A DNA stretch of 64,000 nt from Bradyrhizobium betae (GTDB lineage Bacteria; Pseudomonadota; Alphaproteobacteria; Rhizobiales; Xanthobacteraceae), in contig NZ_CP044543.1 in NCBI RefSeq assembly GCF_008932115.1, forward strand, positions 3,106,501 through 3,170,500, written 5' to 3'. The notes under the pieces were generated by a model. That model was not told where the DNA came from, did not search any database, and saw only the letters and a list, made by a program, of their open reading frames with translations. The position numbers and the translations under genes were made by a program. Shown one piece after another: positions 43,274-51,797 of the stretch; the first letter of the stretch is position 1; each line of letters starts with the position of its first letter.

Positions 43274-44545
43274 ATGACCGAACAGACGCTTGCTGCGCCG
43301 ATCGACGATCAACCGGACCGCCAGCGCGGTTTTTCACGCTACCAGGTGCTCCTCGTCGCGCTGCTCGCGTTCGCGCAGTTCACCATCATCCTCGATTTCA
43401 TCATCATGTCGCCGCTCGGCGCCATCCTGATGCCTTCGCTCGATATCACCGCCGGGCAATTCGGCGTCGCCGTGTCGGCCTACGCGTTCAGCGCGGGACT
43501 ATCGGGCGTCCTCGCCGCCGGCTTTGCCGACCGCTTCGACCGCAAGCGCCTGCTGCTGTTCTTCTATGTCGGCTTCACGCTGGGCACCCTGCTCTGCGCC
43601 ATGGCGCAGACTTACCATATGCTGCTGCTCGGCCGGATCGTGACCGGATTGTTCGGCGGCGTAATCGGTTCGGTCGTGCTGGCCATCGTCACCGATCTGT
43701 TTCCGTTGCAAATGCGCGGCCGCGTGATGGGCTTCGTGCAGACCGCGTTCGCCGCCAGCCAGGTGCTGGGCGTTCCGGCCGGATTGTATCTCGCCAATCA
43801 CTGGAGCTGGCACGTCTGCTTCATTGCGATCGTCGGCCTGTCGATCGTGACGATTGCCATCATCGCCTTCGCCATGGAGCCGGTCGACGCGCATCTGAAA
43901 CTGAAGCAGGACCGGAACCCGTTCCACCATCTGATCGCGACGGTCGGTGAGCCGCGCTATACGCTGGCTTTCGCGGTCACGACGTTGCTCGCGACCGGCG
44001 GCTACATGATCATGCCGTATTCCAGCGCCTTCACCGTGAACAATGTCGGTATCGACATGGCGCATCTGCCGATCATCTATCTCGTCTCCGGCCTGTTCAG
44101 CATCGTCACCGGGCCGCTGGTCGGCCGCGCCAGCGACGCCTTCGGCAAGTACCCGACCTTCGTGTTCGGCTGCGTGATGACCATCGTCATGGTGCTGATC
44201 TACACCCATCTCGGCCACGTCTCGCTCGCGACCGCGATCATCGTCAACGTGCTGATGTTCGTCGGCATCTTCTCGCGCATGATCCCGTCACAGGCGCTGA
44301 TCTCGGCGATCCCCGATCCGGACCAGCGCGGCTCGTTCAGCGCGGTCAGCGCATCGCTGCAGCAGCTTTCCGGCGGGATCGGCTCGATGCTCGCCGCCGC
44401 GATCATCTCGCAGCAGCCTGACGGCTCGCTGCTGCATTTCGAGCGGATCGGCTATGTCGTCGTCGCGACGACGCTCATCACGCTGGTCGCGATGTATTTC
44501 GTGCAGAAGTCGGTGGCGGAGCGGGCGGGGAAGAGCGTGGTGTGA
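43274..44545 (+). CDS. MFS transporter
   Basis: 423 aa with about twelve membrane helices. The loop 2-3 motif is ADRFDRKRLLLF and motif C-like GFVQTAFAASQVLGVPAG lies in helix 5, as in AraJ/drug-efflux type MFS proteins. Substrate unknown. ATG 43274 has CAGG 4-8 bases upstream; the ORF extends 30 codons further but without membrane-protein character. Confidence 0.85.
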   Translation: MTEQTLAAPIDDQPDRQRGFSRYQVLLVALLAFAQFTIILDFIIMSPLGAILMPSLDITAGQFGVAVSAYAFSAGLSGVLAAGFADRFDRKRLLLFFYVGFTLGTLLCAMAQTYHMLLLGRIVTGLFGGVIGSVVLAIVTDLFPLQMRGRVMGFVQTAFAASQVLGVPAGLYLANHWSWHVCFIAIVGLSIVTIAIIAFAMEPVDAHLKLKQDRNPFHHLIATVGEPRYTLAFAVTTLLATGGYMIMPYSSAFTVNNVGIDMAHLPIIYLVSGLFSIVTGPLVGRASDAFGKYPTFVFGCVMTIVMVLIYTHLGHVSLATAIIVNVLMFVGIFSRMIPSQALISAIPDPDQRGSFSAVSASLQQLSGGIGSMLAAAIISQQPDGSLLHFERIGYVVVATTLITLVAMYFVQKSVAERAGKSVV

Positions 44546-44669
44546 AGGGCGACAACAGCTCCTCTTCCACATTCAGGTGAACCAACGTTGGGACTTCGAT
44601 GACCAAGGTTGAACGTCTCACCTATTGGTCGAAAATCTCGTAAGTCGATGCGCCGAACGGAGATCTCCA

Positions 44670-45155
44670 ATGAAGCTCATACTTGCCGCCGCGATGCTCG
44701 CGGCAAGCCTCCCGCTCGCATCGATGGCTTTCGCCCAAGCCACCGCGCCAGCCGACCTTGCAGTGATTGATTCCTGTCTGAAGACCGCGGAGAAAACCGG
44801 CGGTTTCGGCGGCGCGTGCGTCGGGCTCGTCGCCGACCCCTGCATCAAGGCGGCAAAGGGCGCGAATGACGACGTCGCCAAATGGAAAGCCTGCGCGGCG
44901 CGCGAACTCGCCATTTGGACGCAGAAAACCACTGAGGCGCTCAAGAAGGTTCAGGCCGGCGGGTTCGCCGAAATGATCGAGGCGGTCAAGGACTCGCAGA
45001 AAACCTTCGCCGCGTCGCGTGATCGCTTTTGCGCGGTCTTCGACAAAATCGAGCCCGGCATGTACCCGGGCGACGCGAGCTACTGCCGCCTGCGCGAGAC
45101 CGCGAACCACTCGCTGAGCCTGATCAAGCTCGGCGCTGCGGTCAACGAGCACTGA
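44670..45155 (+). CDS. LprI-like (DUF1311) secreted protein
   Basis: 161 aa. Signal peptide residues 1-22 (ending AFAQ). Six cysteines in the mature part and the pattern SQKTFAASRDRFC followed by YCRLRETANHSLSL match the DUF1311/LprI lysozyme-inhibitor-like family. It is a periplasmic protein of unproven function. ATG 44670 begins the signal sequence. It is the last chromosomal-type gene before the island. Confidence 0.75.
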   Translation: MKLILAAAMLAASLPLASMAFAQATAPADLAVIDSCLKTAEKTGGFGGACVGLVADPCIKAAKGANDDVAKWKACAARELAIWTQKTTEALKKVQAGGFAEMIEAVKDSQKTFAASRDRFCAVFDKIEPGMYPGDASYCRLRETANHSLSLIKLGAAVNEH

Positions 45156-45450
45156 GGCCTCTTAGGGGCTTGGGTCTTTGCCGACCTTTCCCCACATAGC
45201 GACGACGGCTTCGGCCGCGAGCGCGGTGGACGTCGTTGATAGCTTACCTGGCATCCGGGCAACGGCTGTCGGCGCGTAGCGCTTGCCGGAGCGACCGACG
45301 AAGGCAGCGGCTCAAGCTCGCCTGCGATCTCAGTCGACGCGACGAGCGATATGGGCCATTCGGTTAGCCAAGAGCGCTGTGCCTCGGTTTTGCGTACCGG
45401 TCAGCAGCTCGAACTCCCTGCAAATGAGCGATTTCAATCGCTTGAGCAGG
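45156..45450. other. GC-rich spacer, no gene recognised
   Basis: The region retains high CpG and chromosomal composition. Minus-strand translation around 45160-45420 gives interrupted stretches that could be a decayed coding sequence, but no family was recognised and stops interrupt each frame. Confidence 0.4.
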
Positions 45451-45469
45451 AGATGGTGCCTAGGAAAGG
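45451..45469. repeat. att-like repeat of tRNA-Leu 3' end (distal copy)
   Basis: AGATGGTGCCTAGGAAAGG matches 50592-50610, the 3' end of tRNA-Leu, at 18 of 19 bases. It is in direct orientation and marks the left boundary of the lower-GC segment. Confidence 0.75.
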
Positions 45470-45479
45470 CACCTCATTT

Positions 45480-45805
45480 ATCATCTAACAGATTGAACTA
45501 GCACCATTTTATCTCAAATGTGGACTGCCCATACCAACAATACAACCAACACTTGGGCACCCTCAAAGGTAGCTCCCCAGAGGGTCGCTGGAGCTGTTGC
45601 CCTGAGGGGGAGGTTGTTGCCCACCAGGGGCAACAGAGGCCTTAGAAGGCTCCAACAAAGCCTAGGGGTGCTTCACAAGTGGCCCTCATCAACTCCAACT
45701 CCCCCTTCTGGGAGCCCCCAGCGCACGGGAACTGAGGCCTAGGTGCCTCCTTAGCAGGGGATGCAACTAGCTTGTCCCCTGGTGGGATCCTCTGCACATG
45801 GTGGC
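45480..45805. other. CpG-depleted, hairpin-rich non-coding stretch
   Basis: Only three CpG dinucleotides occur in about 325 bases, and CTAG, rare around it, occurs several times. Hairpins include AGCTCC/GGAGCT (45571-45595), GTTGCCC/GGGCAAC (45616-45634), GAGGC/GCCTC (45734-45749) and CAGGGGA/TCCCCTG (45755-45781). A 74-codon ORF (45518-45742) is low-complexity and not convincing. It precedes the helicase gene and could encode a structured RNA or be foreign filler; this is unknown. Confidence 0.6.
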
Positions 45806-45859
45806 AACGCGTCAGCGCCAGTGATAAGTCAGAGCACTTAGGATGCGAGGCAGTTCAAC

Positions 45860-48025
45860 ATGACTATTGTGGTTTGGGGATCGACTAAGAAGCCGGTCAC
45901 TAGCCTACGCTTAGCCGAAGCCATTGAGCAGAACTTCCCCGAAGAAGGGATGCTTTACATTGGCTACCCCGTGCTGTCGGCTTCCGATGGCGCTAGTTCG
46001 ATCGATGCTCTTTGGATAAGCCCAAAACGTGGGTTGATCATCTTCCACTTGGTCGAAGGACGTGATGTCGGCAGTTACCAGGAGGTACAGGACGAGTTTG
46101 CTAACAACCTGGAGACCCGCCTCCGCGCACATCGAGCACTCATGCAGGGCCGCTCCCTGCTGGCACCACCGCGTGTTATTACATACGCTCCCATGGTGCA
46201 CATCGATGCGAACTACGATGTGTCTTATCCTCTTACTAACGACGACAATCTCATCACCGTCTTAAATGCGACAGTTTGGGATCGCCCAGATCTCTTCGCA
46301 GCAGCACACTCGGTTATTCAATCAATCTCCAGCATCCGACAAGGTCGACGCCGCCGGACGATCCATAATCAGAATTCTCGCGGCGCCGTCCTAAAGGCAC
46401 TTGAAGATTCTATTGCTAACCTCGACTCGCGGCAAAGCCGCGCCGTAATCGAAACGGTTGAGGGCGTGCAGAGAATCCGTGGACTAGCCGGCTCGGGCAA
46501 AACTATCATTCTGGCACTCAAGGCAGCGTATCTCCATGCCCAACATCCAGATTGGCGCATTGCGGTAACTTTCAATACGCGCTCGCTGAAGGGGCAGTTT
46601 CGAAAGTACATCACCGACTTTGTCTTCGAGCAAACACGGGATGTCCCAGACTGGACTAAGCTTCAGATCCTCAACGGGTGGGGCGCACCCGGTAGCGATG
46701 ACCGGACCGGGGTATACTATCAATTTTGCAGAGCGAATGGTGTTGAGTTCTTCGACTTTTCATCAGCGCGCAAGAAGTTCGGGTCAACTCGGGAGTTCTC
46801 CGGCGCATGCCAACATGCGCTTACGTCGGTGAATTCGCCTCAAAAGCTTTTTGATGTTGTACTTGTCGATGAGGCTCAAGATTTCGGTCCAGAGTTCCTG
46901 CGCCTTTGCTACGCAGCGCTAAGTGTCCCCAAAAGGCTCGTTTACGCCTACGACGAGCTTCAATCACTAACTGAGTCCACACTGCCACCTCCCGAAGAGC
47001 TTTTTGGAACGGATATCGAAGGTCGTTCACTTGTGACTTTCGCGGCACCACAGCCTGGCCAGCCAAGTCAAGATATCATCTTGGAAAAGTGCTATAGGAA
47101 TTCACGCCCTGTTCTCGCGAGCGCACATGCGCTTGGCTTCGGCATTTACCGAAACCCTGATGCAAAATCAGGCACCGGTCTGATTCAGATGTTCGACCGT
47201 AGCGAGCTATGGGAAGACGTGGGTTACAGCGTTGTTGGCGGCGAGCTCAAGGACGGAGCGAAAGTCTCACTTTCGCGCACTCCTCATTCAAGCCCAGAGT
47301 TTCTTGAAACTCCCGCCACCGTTGATCAGCTTATCGAATTTATAGTCTTCAACGATCCGGCTGAGCAAGCCCAATGGATAGCCGACGCGATCGAGAAGAA
47401 CATCAAGCAAGACGAGCTGAATCACAGCGATATCATCGTGATCAACCCCGACCCACTTACTACCGTGAAACAGGTTGGAGCGCCAAGGCTGCTGCTTTTC
47501 GAGAGAGGCATCCAGTCTCATGTAGCGGGCGTCGATACTGACTCCGATGTGTTTTTCAAAAGTGAAGACGACTCGGTCGCGTTTACGGGAATTTTCCGAG
47601 CAAAGGGTAATGAGGCGGGTATGGTGTACATCATGAACGCTCAAGACTGTTATTATTCATTTGGTAGCCTTCAAAAAATAAGAAACCAGATTTTTACCGC
47701 CATCACGCGAAGCAAGGCGTGGGTGAAAGTATTGGGCTTCGGCCCTAAGATGGAGAGACTTAAGGAGGAGTTCGCGCGGATTCGCGATCATGATTACCGG
47801 CTCGACTTCACCTACCCCGACGAAGAGACGCGACGATTTTTGAAGGTTGTTAATCGGGATCTGACCGCTGCTGAAAAGCGATCAATTAAGGGCGCAGCGC
47901 ATAATGTTAGAGAACTCGCGGCGGAGCTCGAGTCCGGCCGACTGATGCTCGACGACCTTCCGAAGGGAGAGCTGAGGAGGCTTCGAGAACTGTTGGACGA
48001 GAAGATGCGCGATGGCAACGCCTGA
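45860..48025 (+). CDS. SF1 helicase with NERD-like N-terminus
   Basis: 721 aa. Helicase motifs: Q motif NLDSRQSRAV (187-196), Walker A GLAGSGKT (208-215), Walker B LVDEAQDF (335-342), motif III AYDELQSL, a RNSRP segment in domain 2A, motif V-like AKGNEAGMVYIMNA, motif VI FTAITRSKAW. Residues 30-110 look like a NERD-type nuclease fold, but the expected E-x-K strand reads GLIIFHLVEG (His63, Val65), so the nuclease site is lost; Asp49 remains. Codon use is far less GC-rich than in neighbours. The gene overlaps the next by 14 bases, so they probably work together. A defence role is inferred from context. Confidence 0.82.
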   Translation: MTIVVWGSTKKPVTSLRLAEAIEQNFPEEGMLYIGYPVLSASDGASSIDALWISPKRGLIIFHLVEGRDVGSYQEVQDEFANNLETRLRAHRALMQGRSLLAPPRVITYAPMVHIDANYDVSYPLTNDDNLITVLNATVWDRPDLFAAAHSVIQSISSIRQGRRRRTIHNQNSRGAVLKALEDSIANLDSRQSRAVIETVEGVQRIRGLAGSGKTIILALKAAYLHAQHPDWRIAVTFNTRSLKGQFRKYITDFVFEQTRDVPDWTKLQILNGWGAPGSDDRTGVYYQFCRANGVEFFDFSSARKKFGSTREFSGACQHALTSVNSPQKLFDVVLVDEAQDFGPEFLRLCYAALSVPKRLVYAYDELQSLTESTLPPPEELFGTDIEGRSLVTFAAPQPGQPSQDIILEKCYRNSRPVLASAHALGFGIYRNPDAKSGTGLIQMFDRSELWEDVGYSVVGGELKDGAKVSLSRTPHSSPEFLETPATVDQLIEFIVFNDPAEQAQWIADAIEKNIKQDELNHSDIIVINPDPLTTVKQVGAPRLLLFERGIQSHVAGVDTDSDVFFKSEDDSVAFTGIFRAKGNEAGMVYIMNAQDCYYSFGSLQKIRNQIFTAITRSKAWVKVLGFGPKMERLKEEFARIRDHDYRLDFTYPDEETRRFLKVVNRDLTAAEKRSIKGAAHNVRELAAELESGRLMLDDLPKGELRRLRELLDEKMRDGNA

Positions 48026-48677
48026 GGTTCTCCTGCGGGAAACGCAGAAGCTGACAGCTGAGCTTATTGCGGTTGGGATCTGCACAGACCAGAATTTCCC
48101 CGCGCAAGTCGTTCAGATGGATGGTGCCGTCACGGTTGGAATGTCCAAAACGGATGGCCTAGCTATCACGTTAAAAAACATTCCCTACGCTGACTCTTAC
48201 AAGGTCCTTGCCGAAGAGCGCGCCTTCAGCATGCGCTTTATTGACGGCGGTCTCATCCAAATTCTCTACACGTTTCGAAACAATGAGCTTGTGAAGCATC
48301 GCCTTGCCTTTTTCCCTTCGCCGGACCTTTTGGAATATCAAAACAACGCCGAAATCTACGAATCCGATGAACTTTACGCTGACATCACGGCCCTAAATGT
48401 TGTTACGACGCCGATGAGGTTCGACTTCGACAGGGCGAACTTTGTGGAGGTCAATCATCCGATGTGCCATTTGACGATCGGACAGTACAGGAATTGTCGA
48501 ATACCTGTTTCTGCGCCACTTACGCCGCATGCGTTCGTAAGCTTCGTCTTGAGATCTTTTTACAACACCCCATTTAAGAACCTATGCTCCGACTTGAGCG
48601 TCATTTCGCCGAAATTGGTGCGAACTCTATCGGGCCTCGAACATCAGCAACTTTATATGCAAGCTTGCGGCATCTAG
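48012..48677 (+). CDS. DUF2290-like protein, partner of helicase
   Basis: 221 aa, no signal or membrane segment. The central-to-C-terminal signature HPMCHLTIGQYRNCRIPVS, then TPHAFVSFVLRSFY, matches what I recall of DUF2290, a family of unknown function. Two His (HPMCH) and a Cys are candidate metal or catalytic residues. The start overlaps the helicase end by 14 bases in another frame, indicating translational coupling. The family call is from memory of the motif, not a search. Confidence 0.65.
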   Translation: MATPEVLLRETQKLTAELIAVGICTDQNFPAQVVQMDGAVTVGMSKTDGLAITLKNIPYADSYKVLAEERAFSMRFIDGGLIQILYTFRNNELVKHRLAFFPSPDLLEYQNNAEIYESDELYADITALNVVTTPMRFDFDRANFVEVNHPMCHLTIGQYRNCRIPVSAPLTPHAFVSFVLRSFYNTPFKNLCSDLSVISPKLVRTLSGLEHQQLYMQACGI

Positions 48678-48876
48678 ACGCCCGCCGACGCGATATTCGC
48701 TGGTCGCATGAAAGCTTCTGCAAGACTCACTTCAGCAGTCATCACCTCAGACGCTACCATGCGGAATTGCCAATGCGGACGAACTTACGCAATTCCGCCC
48801 AACTAGGTGATTTAGTGACGGTGCAGCCGGCGTGCTACGCAGAACTGAACGATACCAAAAGTCGAAACTCGCACTC
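48678..48876. other. Convergent spacer in island
   Basis: About 200 bases between the DUF2290-like gene and the minus-strand 72-aa ORF. No gene or clear terminator was seen. Confidence 0.5.
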
Positions 48877-49095
48877 TCACGTTTTCAGAGTGTATGCTTG
48901 TTTCAGAGCACGCTCGACAGCAATTCGACCTCGAATGATGTCTGAGTCGGTCGCTCCGCCATGAGTTATCATCCCAAGGTGCCAGTCTTCAGGTGTCCGT
49001 ATGATTTTAACAGCAGAAACTGATCGGCATCCAGGCTCCTCCCGCATACGCTCGGCTGCATTCGTCGCGAGCATCGACTCTGTAAGCTCCCGCAT
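48877..49095 (-). CDS. Small hypothetical protein (72 aa)
   Basis: ATG 49095 has AGAGGAG six bases upstream, which decides the start; the frame runs further back but without such a site. The protein has the layout CRSVSAVKIIRT...WHLGMITHGG then a helical end ALKQAYTLK, resembling short rhizobial hypothetical proteins with a conserved Trp and C-terminal helix. Function unknown. It is downstream of, and possibly co-transcribed with, the Panacea operon (125-base gap). Confidence 0.55.
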   Translation of the reverse strand: MRELTESMLATNAAERMREEPGCRSVSAVKIIRTPEDWHLGMITHGGATDSDIIRGRIAVERALKQAYTLKT

Positions 49096-49220
49096 TCTGT
49101 GCTCCTCTTTGAGCTTTTTTGGCTTTTGAGTGCTGCAAAAAGACTTAGCGAGCTTCCGGCAGAACACGTCATCACCACGCCCACCGAGCAGTTGTTTGTT
49201 GATAGCCAAGTCGTCCCGAA

Positions 49221-49964
49221 TTAGGGAGCCTGCTGATCGTCGTCGAAGAAATCACCTTGCCTCGGATCGCGCTGCTTGCGATCTTCGGAGGGTGTTGCGG
49301 TGCTTCCGGCAAGCTCGGCTTCAGCCATAAAGTATCCGTCGGCAAAGATTCTCAGCATCTCAAATTTCGTGCTGTCGTCGATGCGCGGAATGTCCCGGGC
49401 ATCAATGACGCGCAGTTCACGTTCCGGCTCGCGGCCTTTCACCTTCGGCACGCTGAAATCCAATATCTGGAACTTGGCGCCTGCAAGATCAGGATCGTCC
49501 GCCAAGAGCTCATCAACGAGCGTCACGAAGAGCGACAAACGCTCTTTGGCGAGCGGATTTTGCCGCCAAAAACTGAACCAAGGGAACGTGAGCTGTCCAC
49601 CCACGCCATACAAAAGCGGTGGATCGAATGGCACCATGAGTCCGCGTCCGATCAAGTAGTAGCGGCGATCAATGGACTGCACAAAATCAGGAGAGACAGA
49701 GGCGAAGTGATCCCGGATCAACGGAAGCACTCCGAGCAAATTCTGCCGGACATCGGCACGCTTCACAGCCCGCCTGATCCCTTCGACAATCTCCTCGTAG
49801 GGCTGGTTGAACACCAGCATGTCTCGAGCCGCCAAAAACAACGAATTGTAGTTGAACGTCGGCGGGCTATTCGCGAGCGTTACCAGTTTCTTGCAGGTGC
49901 GCTCAGATGTGCTCTGCCAATTCCGGGCGAGATGCTGAACTGACGGCACTTTCAGTTTCGCCAC
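49221..49964 (-). CDS. Unknown partner of Panacea antitoxin (putative toxin)
   Basis: 247 aa, soluble, mixed alpha/beta, with an acidic disordered C-terminus (residues 220-247). No catalytic motif was recognised. Distinct stretches are NYNSLFLAARDMLVFN and YEEIVEGIRRAVKR near residues 40-70 and GRGLMVPFDPPLLYG near 108-122. It starts 9 bases after the Panacea gene, so the two form one operon. Since Panacea proteins neutralise the product of the adjacent gene, this is the candidate toxin, by position only. Confidence 0.6.
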   Translation of the reverse strand: MAKLKVPSVQHLARNWQSTSERTCKKLVTLANSPPTFNYNSLFLAARDMLVFNQPYEEIVEGIRRAVKRADVRQNLLGVLPLIRDHFASVSPDFVQSIDRRYYLIGRGLMVPFDPPLLYGVGGQLTFPWFSFWRQNPLAKERLSLFVTLVDELLADDPDLAGAKFQILDFSVPKVKGREPERELRVIDARDIPRIDDSTKFEMLRIFADGYFMAEAELAGSTATPSEDRKQRDPRQGDFFDDDQQAP

Positions 49965-49973
49965 GTTGACCTC

Positions 49974-50474
49974 TCATTGCAAAATGTATGGCGCTACGCG
50001 CTTGGAGTAGAAGCGAACAATTTCCTCATCTGCGATCTTCATGCCCGGGTTCACCGAACCTGGGTGATTCCAAACATTATACCACGGACTGTCTTTCGCG
50101 TGAGTCAGCTCAACAAGGTCGCTCGGCCGAAGCCGCGAATAGAACTCAACAACTTTTGTGAGCACATCTGCAGCTGAGCGGTCGAATGTATAACGTACAA
50201 CTTGACTCTGACCTGTGAGCGCGTCGATTCGCGTGGCTCGGCTCCGAATCGGTGAACGGTCGAATCCCTTGAACTCTCGGTATAAGTAGGGAAGCACCGG
50301 ACCGAACTCCCACGCTTCGAATCTCTGCGCGATCAGGGGAGCTTTCAATTCGATTAGGGACCAGACATGACAGAAATAGACGATCTTCTGAAGTGAGAGG
50401 TTCGTAACTTCGACGCCTCGCTTGTCACACTCATCCAAGACAAAATTCGCGATTGCGCGGCCGTCCTGAGCCAT
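49974..50474 (-). CDS. Panacea/SocA-domain (DUF4065) antitoxin-like protein
   Basis: 166 aa. The Panacea core is visible: NLSLQKIVYFCHVWSL, FEAWEFGPVLPYLYREFKG and the C-terminal HAKDSPWYNVWN. The domain occurs in SocA, GepA-type and many toxin-antitoxin pairs, where it blocks diverse toxins. It is the first gene of a two-gene operon and lies just inside the tRNA-Leu end of the island. Confidence 0.85.
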   Translation of the reverse strand: MAQDGRAIANFVLDECDKRGVEVTNLSLQKIVYFCHVWSLIELKAPLIAQRFEAWEFGPVLPYLYREFKGFDRSPIRSRATRIDALTGQSQVVRYTFDRSAADVLTKVVEFYSRLRPSDLVELTHAKDSPWYNVWNHPGSVNPGMKIADEEIVRFYSKRVAPYILQ

Positions 50475-50594
50475 CCGCTGTTCCTATTATGTTCCATAAG
50501 ATCACGGAGGGAGCGGCAACCTTGCCTGAGCGACGGAAATTACTCTGCCGCATCGAGTTCACGCTGTCCGGCAGAAACATCGTCGGGAAAAAGA

Positions 50595-50681
<87 letters not shown>

Positions 50682-50831
50682 ATGCCGTTTGGGGCACGGA
50701 GGCGGTTACTAAGGTTCGGTGACGCGGTTGTCAAATCATGAGTAGGGATGCGGATTGCGCATCGCAAACCGGCCCGATACAAGCCTGATAACACGCGCTC
50801 TTCCCCAGGAATGGACCCAGGATCAGATCCC

Positions 50832-51797
50832 ATGGCATCGAATTCGGAAACTCTCGTCACGGTTTTCGGCGGATCGGGGTTTTTGGGCCGGAATGTCGTC
50901 CGCGCGCTGTGCCGGCGGGATTACCGGGTCCGTGTTGCGGTGCGGCGGCCGGAATTGGCCGGATATCTCCAGCCCTCGGGCAAGGTCGGGCAGGTCCACG
51001 TCGTGCAGGCCAATTTGCGCTATCCGGCCTCGGTCGAGGCGGCGCTGCGTGATTCGGATGTGGCGATCAATCTGGTGGGCATCCTCGCCGAGGGTGGCGC
51101 GCAGAGCTTCGACGCCGTCCAGGCCAAGGGCGCCGAAACCGTCGCCAAGGCGGCCGCGGCCATTGGCGCCCGGATGGTGCATGTCTCGGCGATCGGCGCC
51201 GATGCGGAATCGCCCTCGGCCTACGCGCGCGCCAAGGCGGCCGGCGAGCAGGCGGTGCTGGCGGCAGTGCCGTCGGCCACGATCTTCCGTCCCTCGGTCG
51301 TATTCGGCCCCGAGGACCAGTTCACCAACCGCTTTGCCGCGCTGGCCCGGATGTCGCCGGTCATGCCGCTGATCGGCGGCGACACCAAGATGCAGCCGGT
51401 CTATGTCGGCGACGTCGCCACCGCGATCGCGGATGCCGTCGACGGCAAGGCCAAGGCGGGCGCCACCTACGAGCTCGGCGGACCGGAAGTGCTGACCATG
51501 CGTGAGATCATCGAGGCGATCCTCGAGATCGCCGATCGCAAGCCGATGCTGGTGCCGCTGCCGTTCGGCCTCGCCCGTTTCCAGGCCAATTTCCTGCAAT
51601 TCGCGCCGGGCATGCTGAAGCTGACGCCGGACCAGGTCACGCTGCTTGCGCGCGACAATGTCGTGTCGGATGCGGCGAAGGCCGCCGGCCTGACGCTGGA
51701 AGGACTCGGCATCACGGCCGATTCGCTCGAAGCGGTCGCCCCGCAATATCTCTGGCGCTTCCGCCCGCAGGGCCAGTTCCAGCGCAAGAGCGCGTAG
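50832..51797 (+). CDS. Complex I NDUFA9-like NAD(P)-binding protein
   Basis: 321 aa atypical SDR. The N-terminus has the nucleotide-binding GGSGFLGRNVVRAL, and further GARMVHVSAIGAD and SVVFGPEDQFTNRFA match the family related to mitochondrial complex I subunit NDUFA9. It may bind NADPH structurally or act in quinone-related metabolism. ATG 50832 has AGGA 9 bases upstream; in-frame ATGs at 50748 and 50811 are less likely. Confidence 0.85.
   Translation: MASNSETLVTVFGGSGFLGRNVVRALCRRDYRVRVAVRRPELAGYLQPSGKVGQVHVVQANLRYPASVEAALRDSDVAINLVGILAEGGAQSFDAVQAKGAETVAKAAAAIGARMVHVSAIGADAESPSAYARAKAAGEQAVLAAVPSATIFRPSVVFGPEDQFTNRFAALARMSPVMPLIGGDTKMQPVYVGDVATAIADAVDGKAKAGATYELGGPEVLTMREIIEAILEIADRKPMLVPLPFGLARFQANFLQFAPGMLKLTPDQVTLLARDNVVSDAAKAAGLTLEGLGITADSLEAVAPQYLWRFRPQGQFQRKSA

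Follow-up and report, generated by a model that had tools for sequence, protein, structure and literature searches.

Does a pair of overlapping genes on an island of unusual base composition in Bradyrhizobium betae represent an undescribed defense module, or a copy of something already known? The locus lies in a 64,000-nucleotide stretch of this alphaproteobacterium's genome (hereafter the window; coordinates are window positions), in which an earlier note had pointed to an SF1 helicase gene and a small DUF2290-like gene and proposed them as an undescribed defense module that it could not match to any named system. We find that the pair is a copy, gained by horizontal transfer, of an anti-phage system that already has a name, helicase-DUF2290 (Rst_HelicaseDUF2290); of its membership we are practically certain. 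It is a well-preserved member, on a sharply bounded island. What stands of the earlier proposal is the defense module on an acquired island; the word "undescribed" was wrong, because the pair matches an already named system, and one candidate is thereby removed from the list of undescribed systems. How the pair works, and which of several explanations suits it best, is weighed below.

Identity of the gene pair

The two open reading frames (ORFs) are as previously read: 721 amino acids at 45860-48025(+) for the helicase and 221 amino acids at 48012-48677(+) for DUF2290, on one strand, helicase first, with a 14-base overlap at 48012-48025. In searches with hidden Markov models, the helicase matches PADLOC model PDLC03002 "Helicase" at 1022 bits over residues 2-714 of 721, and its partner matches PDLC02999 "DUF2290" at 277 bits over residues 1-217, which supplies the named system that the earlier note had missed. 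The suggestion that the small partner is DUF2290-like is borne out by Pfam PF10053 (DUF2290), matched at 165 bits against a cut-off of 25 bits. The helicase model, the DUF2290 partner, and the adjacency, strand and gene order that belong to the system are all present.

Published work is cited here from excerpts of the papers. A pair of this kind, in which a DUF2290 protein accompanies an ATP-dependent helicase, is reported to inhibit phage T7 specifically (Rousset et al. 2022, PMC9122126), and the system goes by Helicase-DUF2290 or by its DefenseFinder name Rst_HelicaseDUF2290 in several further reports (PMC10855318, PMC11878078, PMC12390725, PMC11811056). The PADLOC models together with this T7-inhibiting pair led us to reject an undescribed system. 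A review states that the role of the system's helicase domains is unexplored (PMC10952713).

The genome from which the window comes has a single copy of the helicase. The closest named relative of the pair is a Phenylobacterium copy, with 83% identity in DUF2290, 84% in the helicase and 73% in DNA. As a separate observation, that copy is adjoined by a gene (L091:3618-4754) that matches PADLOC PD-Lambda-2_C at E 2.9e-23 and also Pfam Beta_protein.

Stability of the pairing across bacteria

The pairing of helicase and DUF2290 is stable in many bacteria. When genome contigs were scanned with the DUF2290 alignment, 87 relatives were confirmed and 80 loci kept, with record titles spanning many phyla. 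A helicase sequence lies directly upstream, in the same order, in 74 of the 80 loci (74 of the 78 with enough DNA), so the co-occurrence on which the earlier proposal depended is real. An automatic test had found a same-strand helicase directly upstream in 72 of the 80; the other two (L111 and L147) were added on re-examination, having been missed because the chosen start codon gives a larger overlap. The count of 74 includes shortened helicase ORFs at L107 (269 amino acids), L140 (625) and L155 (645), and for the last two the tblastn match covers nearly the whole helicase despite the shortened ORF. The gap between the genes is -53 to +13 bases in 68 of 72 measured pairs.

Six loci remain. Two (L158 and L169) have almost no upstream DNA, L163 has a helicase remnant, its upstream sequence matching only the first 70 helicase residues, and L110, L132 and L162 have no helicase match. 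The DUF2290 ORFs of L132, L162 and L163 are short (136-166 amino acids) and may be decaying; that of L110 has 254 amino acids.

Within the same phylum, DUF2290 was found in 9 of 398 genomes and the helicase in 8 of those 9; the ninth carrier's stretch (L008, 1955 bases) stops 125 bases upstream of DUF2290. Within the genus, DUF2290 is present in 4 of 265 genomes, and the three carriers besides the window's all have the helicase, only 29-41% identical. No match to DUF2290 was found by tblastn in 50,697 phage records; five viral-contig loci do match it, and the helicase is present at all five. DUF2290 also has matches in 16 plasmid records. Nine were examined: eight annotate an ATP-binding-domain gene directly upstream, and the ninth, unannotated, has a tblastn match to helicase residues 146-656.

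The surroundings of the pair vary. In a neighbor scan of complete ORFs of 110-900 amino acids, with the best 25 of 225 and the best 25 of 133 families considered, the 118 nearest neighbors of 72 pairs include four type I specificity subunits, four phage integrases, four resolvases and four Uma2 proteins; as counts without a control set, these do not establish enrichment beside defense genes. On the Thioflavicoccus mobilis plasmid pTHIMO01 (L086), the pair is surrounded by BREX genes, with brxC and a DNA methyltransferase gene ahead of it and a PglZ-domain gene further downstream. On two Escherichia coli chromosomes (L171 and L172), it lies beside yfgI in an element that carries trb conjugation genes, and the gene before it is of the recombinase family (annotated as a pseudogene in L172).

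The island and its tRNA insertion site

The atypical composition described earlier is confirmed: positions 45470-50591 have a guanine-plus-cytosine (GC) content of 53.0%, compared with 64.9% in the remainder of the window. The 2.8-kilobase (kb) stretch with the least GC in the whole window starts near 46200, on the pair itself. To this we add exact ends and an empty site. A 19-base repeat, AGATGGTGCCTAGGAAAGG at 45451-45469 and in its unchanged form AGATGGTGCCCAGGAAAGG at 50592-50610, bounds an insertion of 5141 bases. In a genome of the same genus (G405), the match to the left flank ends at 45469, the match to the right flank begins at 50592, and both include the 19 bases AGATGGTGCCCAGGAAAGG, which stand there as a single copy at the junction of the two flanks (L070:2506-2524). 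In another (G402, L071), tRNA-Leu(CAG) is the site of an insertion with other genes, about 14 kb long. Within the genus, this tRNA gene has received insertions more than once, being empty in G405, carrying 5.1 kb in the window and about 14 kb in G402. The G402 insertion ends beside the tRNA in a 552-amino-acid ORF that by eye looks tyrosine-recombinase-like.

The data fit horizontal acquisition of the island, as its low GC, exact ends, empty site, rarity in the genus and likeness to Phenylobacterium are all consistent with it. No integrase was recognized among the five island proteins scanned against Pfam, some small ORFs lying outside that scan; the insertion may therefore be moved in trans, or may have lost its own integrase. 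A search of Rfam over 44500-51000 at E up to 0.1 returned the tRNA as its sole entry and no known structured RNA in the island.

Conserved residues and a proposed mechanism

The alignments behind the conservation statements excluded ORFs below 205 amino acids for DUF2290 and below 690 for the helicase, and used 66 of 70 and 64 of 68 references, respectively, the rest being dropped by hand as near to rows that were kept, a nearness judged without measuring. The helicase motifs (Walker A, Walker B and a motif VI of TAITRSK type) are intact, almost every position being invariant or nearly invariant in 65 aligned family members. For DUF2290, the earlier claim of conserved HPMCH and NCRIP residues holds in part: H149, P150, H153 and R163 are invariant and C162 nearly so, whereas neither the Met nor the Cys of HPMCH is invariant, the family consensus being HPxSH in 83 sequences.

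We favor a mechanism in which the helicase would be both sensor and motor: it would recognize an invader that replicates fast by binding its single-stranded DNA or its replication intermediates, and would spend ATP to bring DUF2290 into action there. DUF2290, whose invariant Asp/Arg/His set is of a kind seen in enzymes, would be the effector and would halt replication, most likely through cleavage or modification of nucleic acid. Taken whole, the explanation of a copy of the named anti-phage system with a helicase sensor and a DUF2290 effector appears probable to us. For the division of labor as such, which we infer, we would put the chance at a little under even, and that DUF2290 is a nuclease is conceivable but rather unlikely. 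By sequence, DUF2290 has no match to solved structures at E up to 10, and Foldseek against PDB and viral models gave no convincing fold match, a fold missing from those lists being still possible; a weak run of UTRA/chorismate-lyase-like entries at E 0.1 and above was not used as evidence. In the text examined of the literature on DUF2290 and HelicaseDUF2290, a mechanism or a DUF2290 activity is nowhere reported.

One alternative places the effector inside the helicase, its N-terminal domain acting as a NERD-like nuclease and DUF2290 as a sensor or specificity subunit. This domain does have an alpha/beta character, D49 and E66 are the same in all 70 helicases compared, and PADLOC ranks a NERD+UvrD model (E 3.8e-13) second for the helicase, though the best stretch of that match, residues 185-388, falls in the helicase part. 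The catalytic motif of NERD nucleases is a D plus E-x-K, the latter expected near positions 63 and 65. The window helicase, however, has H63 and V65, both columns are less than 90% conserved across the 70 sequences, and in 14 of the 70 aligned rows column 63 is variable and column 65 is Val or Ile. NERD is also missing from the eight Pfam families that match the window helicase and from the 25 families listed of the 52 for 65 members. An active NERD nuclease as the favored effector was rejected on the absence of E-x-K, and an effector within the helicase seems improbable overall.

We regard as similarly improbable a system directed first against plasmids, in which the pair would disturb Rep-initiated plasmid replication and T7 inhibition would be the same interference at replication forks. 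This idea draws on Pseudomonas aeruginosa PAO1, in which the cost of a small plasmid was removed by mutating PA1372, a putative helicase gene, or two kinase genes (PMC4208098). With the small plasmid present, 749 genes changed in expression and the SOS response was induced; inactivation of PA1372 restored expression and fitness of plasmid-bearing cells and lowered rep expression 11-fold (PMC4410645). PA1372 lies on a low-GC island, always together with PA1371 (PMC4410645); the two were assigned to the helicase + DUF2290 system in 2024 (PMC11637435), and a table row for them says DUF2290 (PMC8407307). However, these data concern one small plasmid, and plasmids themselves carry the pair, as the records above show. 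Since plasmid copy number showed no significant difference and helicase-dependent rep expression is the reading preferred in that paper (PMC4410645), we take the PA1372 results as a lead and not as proof of plasmid defense.

More doubtful still is a toxin-antitoxin-like arrangement, in which the helicase would restrain a toxic DUF2290 that is freed on infection. The fixed two-gene operon with its touching or overlapping genes would suit such an arrangement, but operons of this form are common without any toxin, and DUF2290 is found with no helicase match at three of the 80 loci and with a remnant at one, three of these four ORFs being short. Very unlikely, finally, is that the island is a relic whose pair does not work in the present host, which the lack of a recognized integrase among the proteins scanned would suit but which agrees poorly with two full-length ORFs, intact conserved motifs and the existence elsewhere of copies of one or other protein at 83-92% identity.

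Other features of the insertion

A toxin-antitoxin-like neighbor had also been noted, and the gene at 49974-50474(-) does match SocA/Panacea. With its 247-amino-acid partner it lies in the right part of the island, oriented opposite to the helicase pair; searches of Pfam, PADLOC and PHROGs with the partner gave nothing at E up to 1. From their sequences, 49221-50474(-) is a candidate divergent SocAB-like pair, separate from the helicase pair though in the same insertion. Features are collected in Table 1.

Table 1. Features of the helicase-DUF2290 island and its boundaries, in window coordinates
Feature	Position	Strand	Basis
Left boundary repeat, 19 bases (attL-like)	45451..45469	.	18/19 bases identical to 50592-50610
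SF1A (UvrD/PcrA-like) helicase, 721 amino acids	45860..48025	+	Helicase of helicase-DUF2290 system
N-terminal alpha/beta domain, residues ~1-160, reminiscent of NERD/restriction-endonuclease-like domain	45860..46339	+	Conservation in 70 and 65 sequences; secondary structure of model
Walker A GLAGSGKT, residues 208-215	46481..46504	+	Invariant in 65 sequences except S212 (nearly invariant)
Walker B DEAQD, residues 337-341	46868..46882	+	Invariant in 65 sequences
DUF2290 protein, 221 amino acids	48012..48677	+	Pfam PF10053 165 bits; PADLOC PDLC02999 277 bits
RFDFD motif, residues 136-140	48417..48431	+	R136 and D138 invariant in 83 sequences
HPMCH motif, residues 149-153	48456..48470	+	H149, P150, H153 invariant in 83 sequences
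NCRIP motif, residues 161-165	48492..48506	+	R163 invariant; N161, C162, I164, P165 nearly invariant in 83 sequences
247-amino-acid partner of SocA-like gene, candidate toxin	49221..49964	-	Weak SocB match, E 0.015, 14 bits vs 210-bit cut-off
SocA/Panacea-type antitoxin gene, 166 amino acids	49974..50474	-	Pfam SocA_Panacea 71 bits; NCBIfam SocA 162 bits, under 190-bit cut-off
Right boundary repeat (attR-like), holds tRNA gene 3' end	50592..50610	.	Repeat of 45451-45469
tRNA-Leu (CAG), insertion site	50595..50681	-	ARAGORN; Rfam tRNA 50.6 bits

Comparison with known systems

Like Gabija, the present pair has a UvrD-like helicase, and this one matches GajB models weakly (24 bits at best), but the partner here is DUF2290 and not of GajA type. 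When the pair and the two proteins of the SocA operon were scanned against PADLOC and Pfam, no GajA (OLD/TOPRIM) partner came up among the four, and Gabija was rejected for want of one. Hachiman, likewise a two-gene system with a helicase sensor and a small effector, is the nearest worked-out example of the logic that we propose (PMC12278908). HamB, however, is compared there with Ski2-like helicases, whereas the present helicase is SF1A; neither protein matched a Hachiman (HamA/HamB) model in PADLOC at E up to 1, and Hachiman was rejected for this reason.

The top Foldseek match of the helicase structure model is human Schlafen-11, with its linker and SF1 helicase. The bacterial helicase might be related to the linker-plus-helicase half of group III Schlafens. 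On that reading, its N-terminal domain, nuclease-like but lacking the customary catalytic lysine, would correspond to the Schlafen linker, and DUF2290 to a separately encoded effector replacing the core nuclease. We consider this distinctly unlikely, because the N-terminal domain is included in only two of seven Schlafen structure matches, one of them at a root-mean-square deviation of 17.8 A. There is no sequence-profile match between the helicase and Schlafen, and in Pfam neither the helicase nor DUF2290 matches the Schlafen core (AlbA_2-type) nuclease at E up to 1. The excerpts of a paper on BREX diversity (PMC12839542), consulted for Schlafen and NERD, hold nothing bearing on the pair. If the relationship were true, human SLFN11 and this two-gene system of bacteria would have in common the sensing of stressed replication DNA and the shutdown of virus or cell. 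The resemblance to Schlafen-11, the invariant residues and the published plasmid-cost data together make the question of mechanism testable.

The closest comparison remains the helicase-DUF2290 system itself, with which the pair shares near full-length matches to both models, gene order, strand and overlapping genes; compared with a pair on an E. coli plasmid, the window helicase shows 51% identity and the window DUF2290 40%. In the pair itself we detected no difference from this system. What differs is the setting, here a Bradyrhizobium (alphaproteobacterial) host and a tRNA-Leu site rather than a P4-like satellite.
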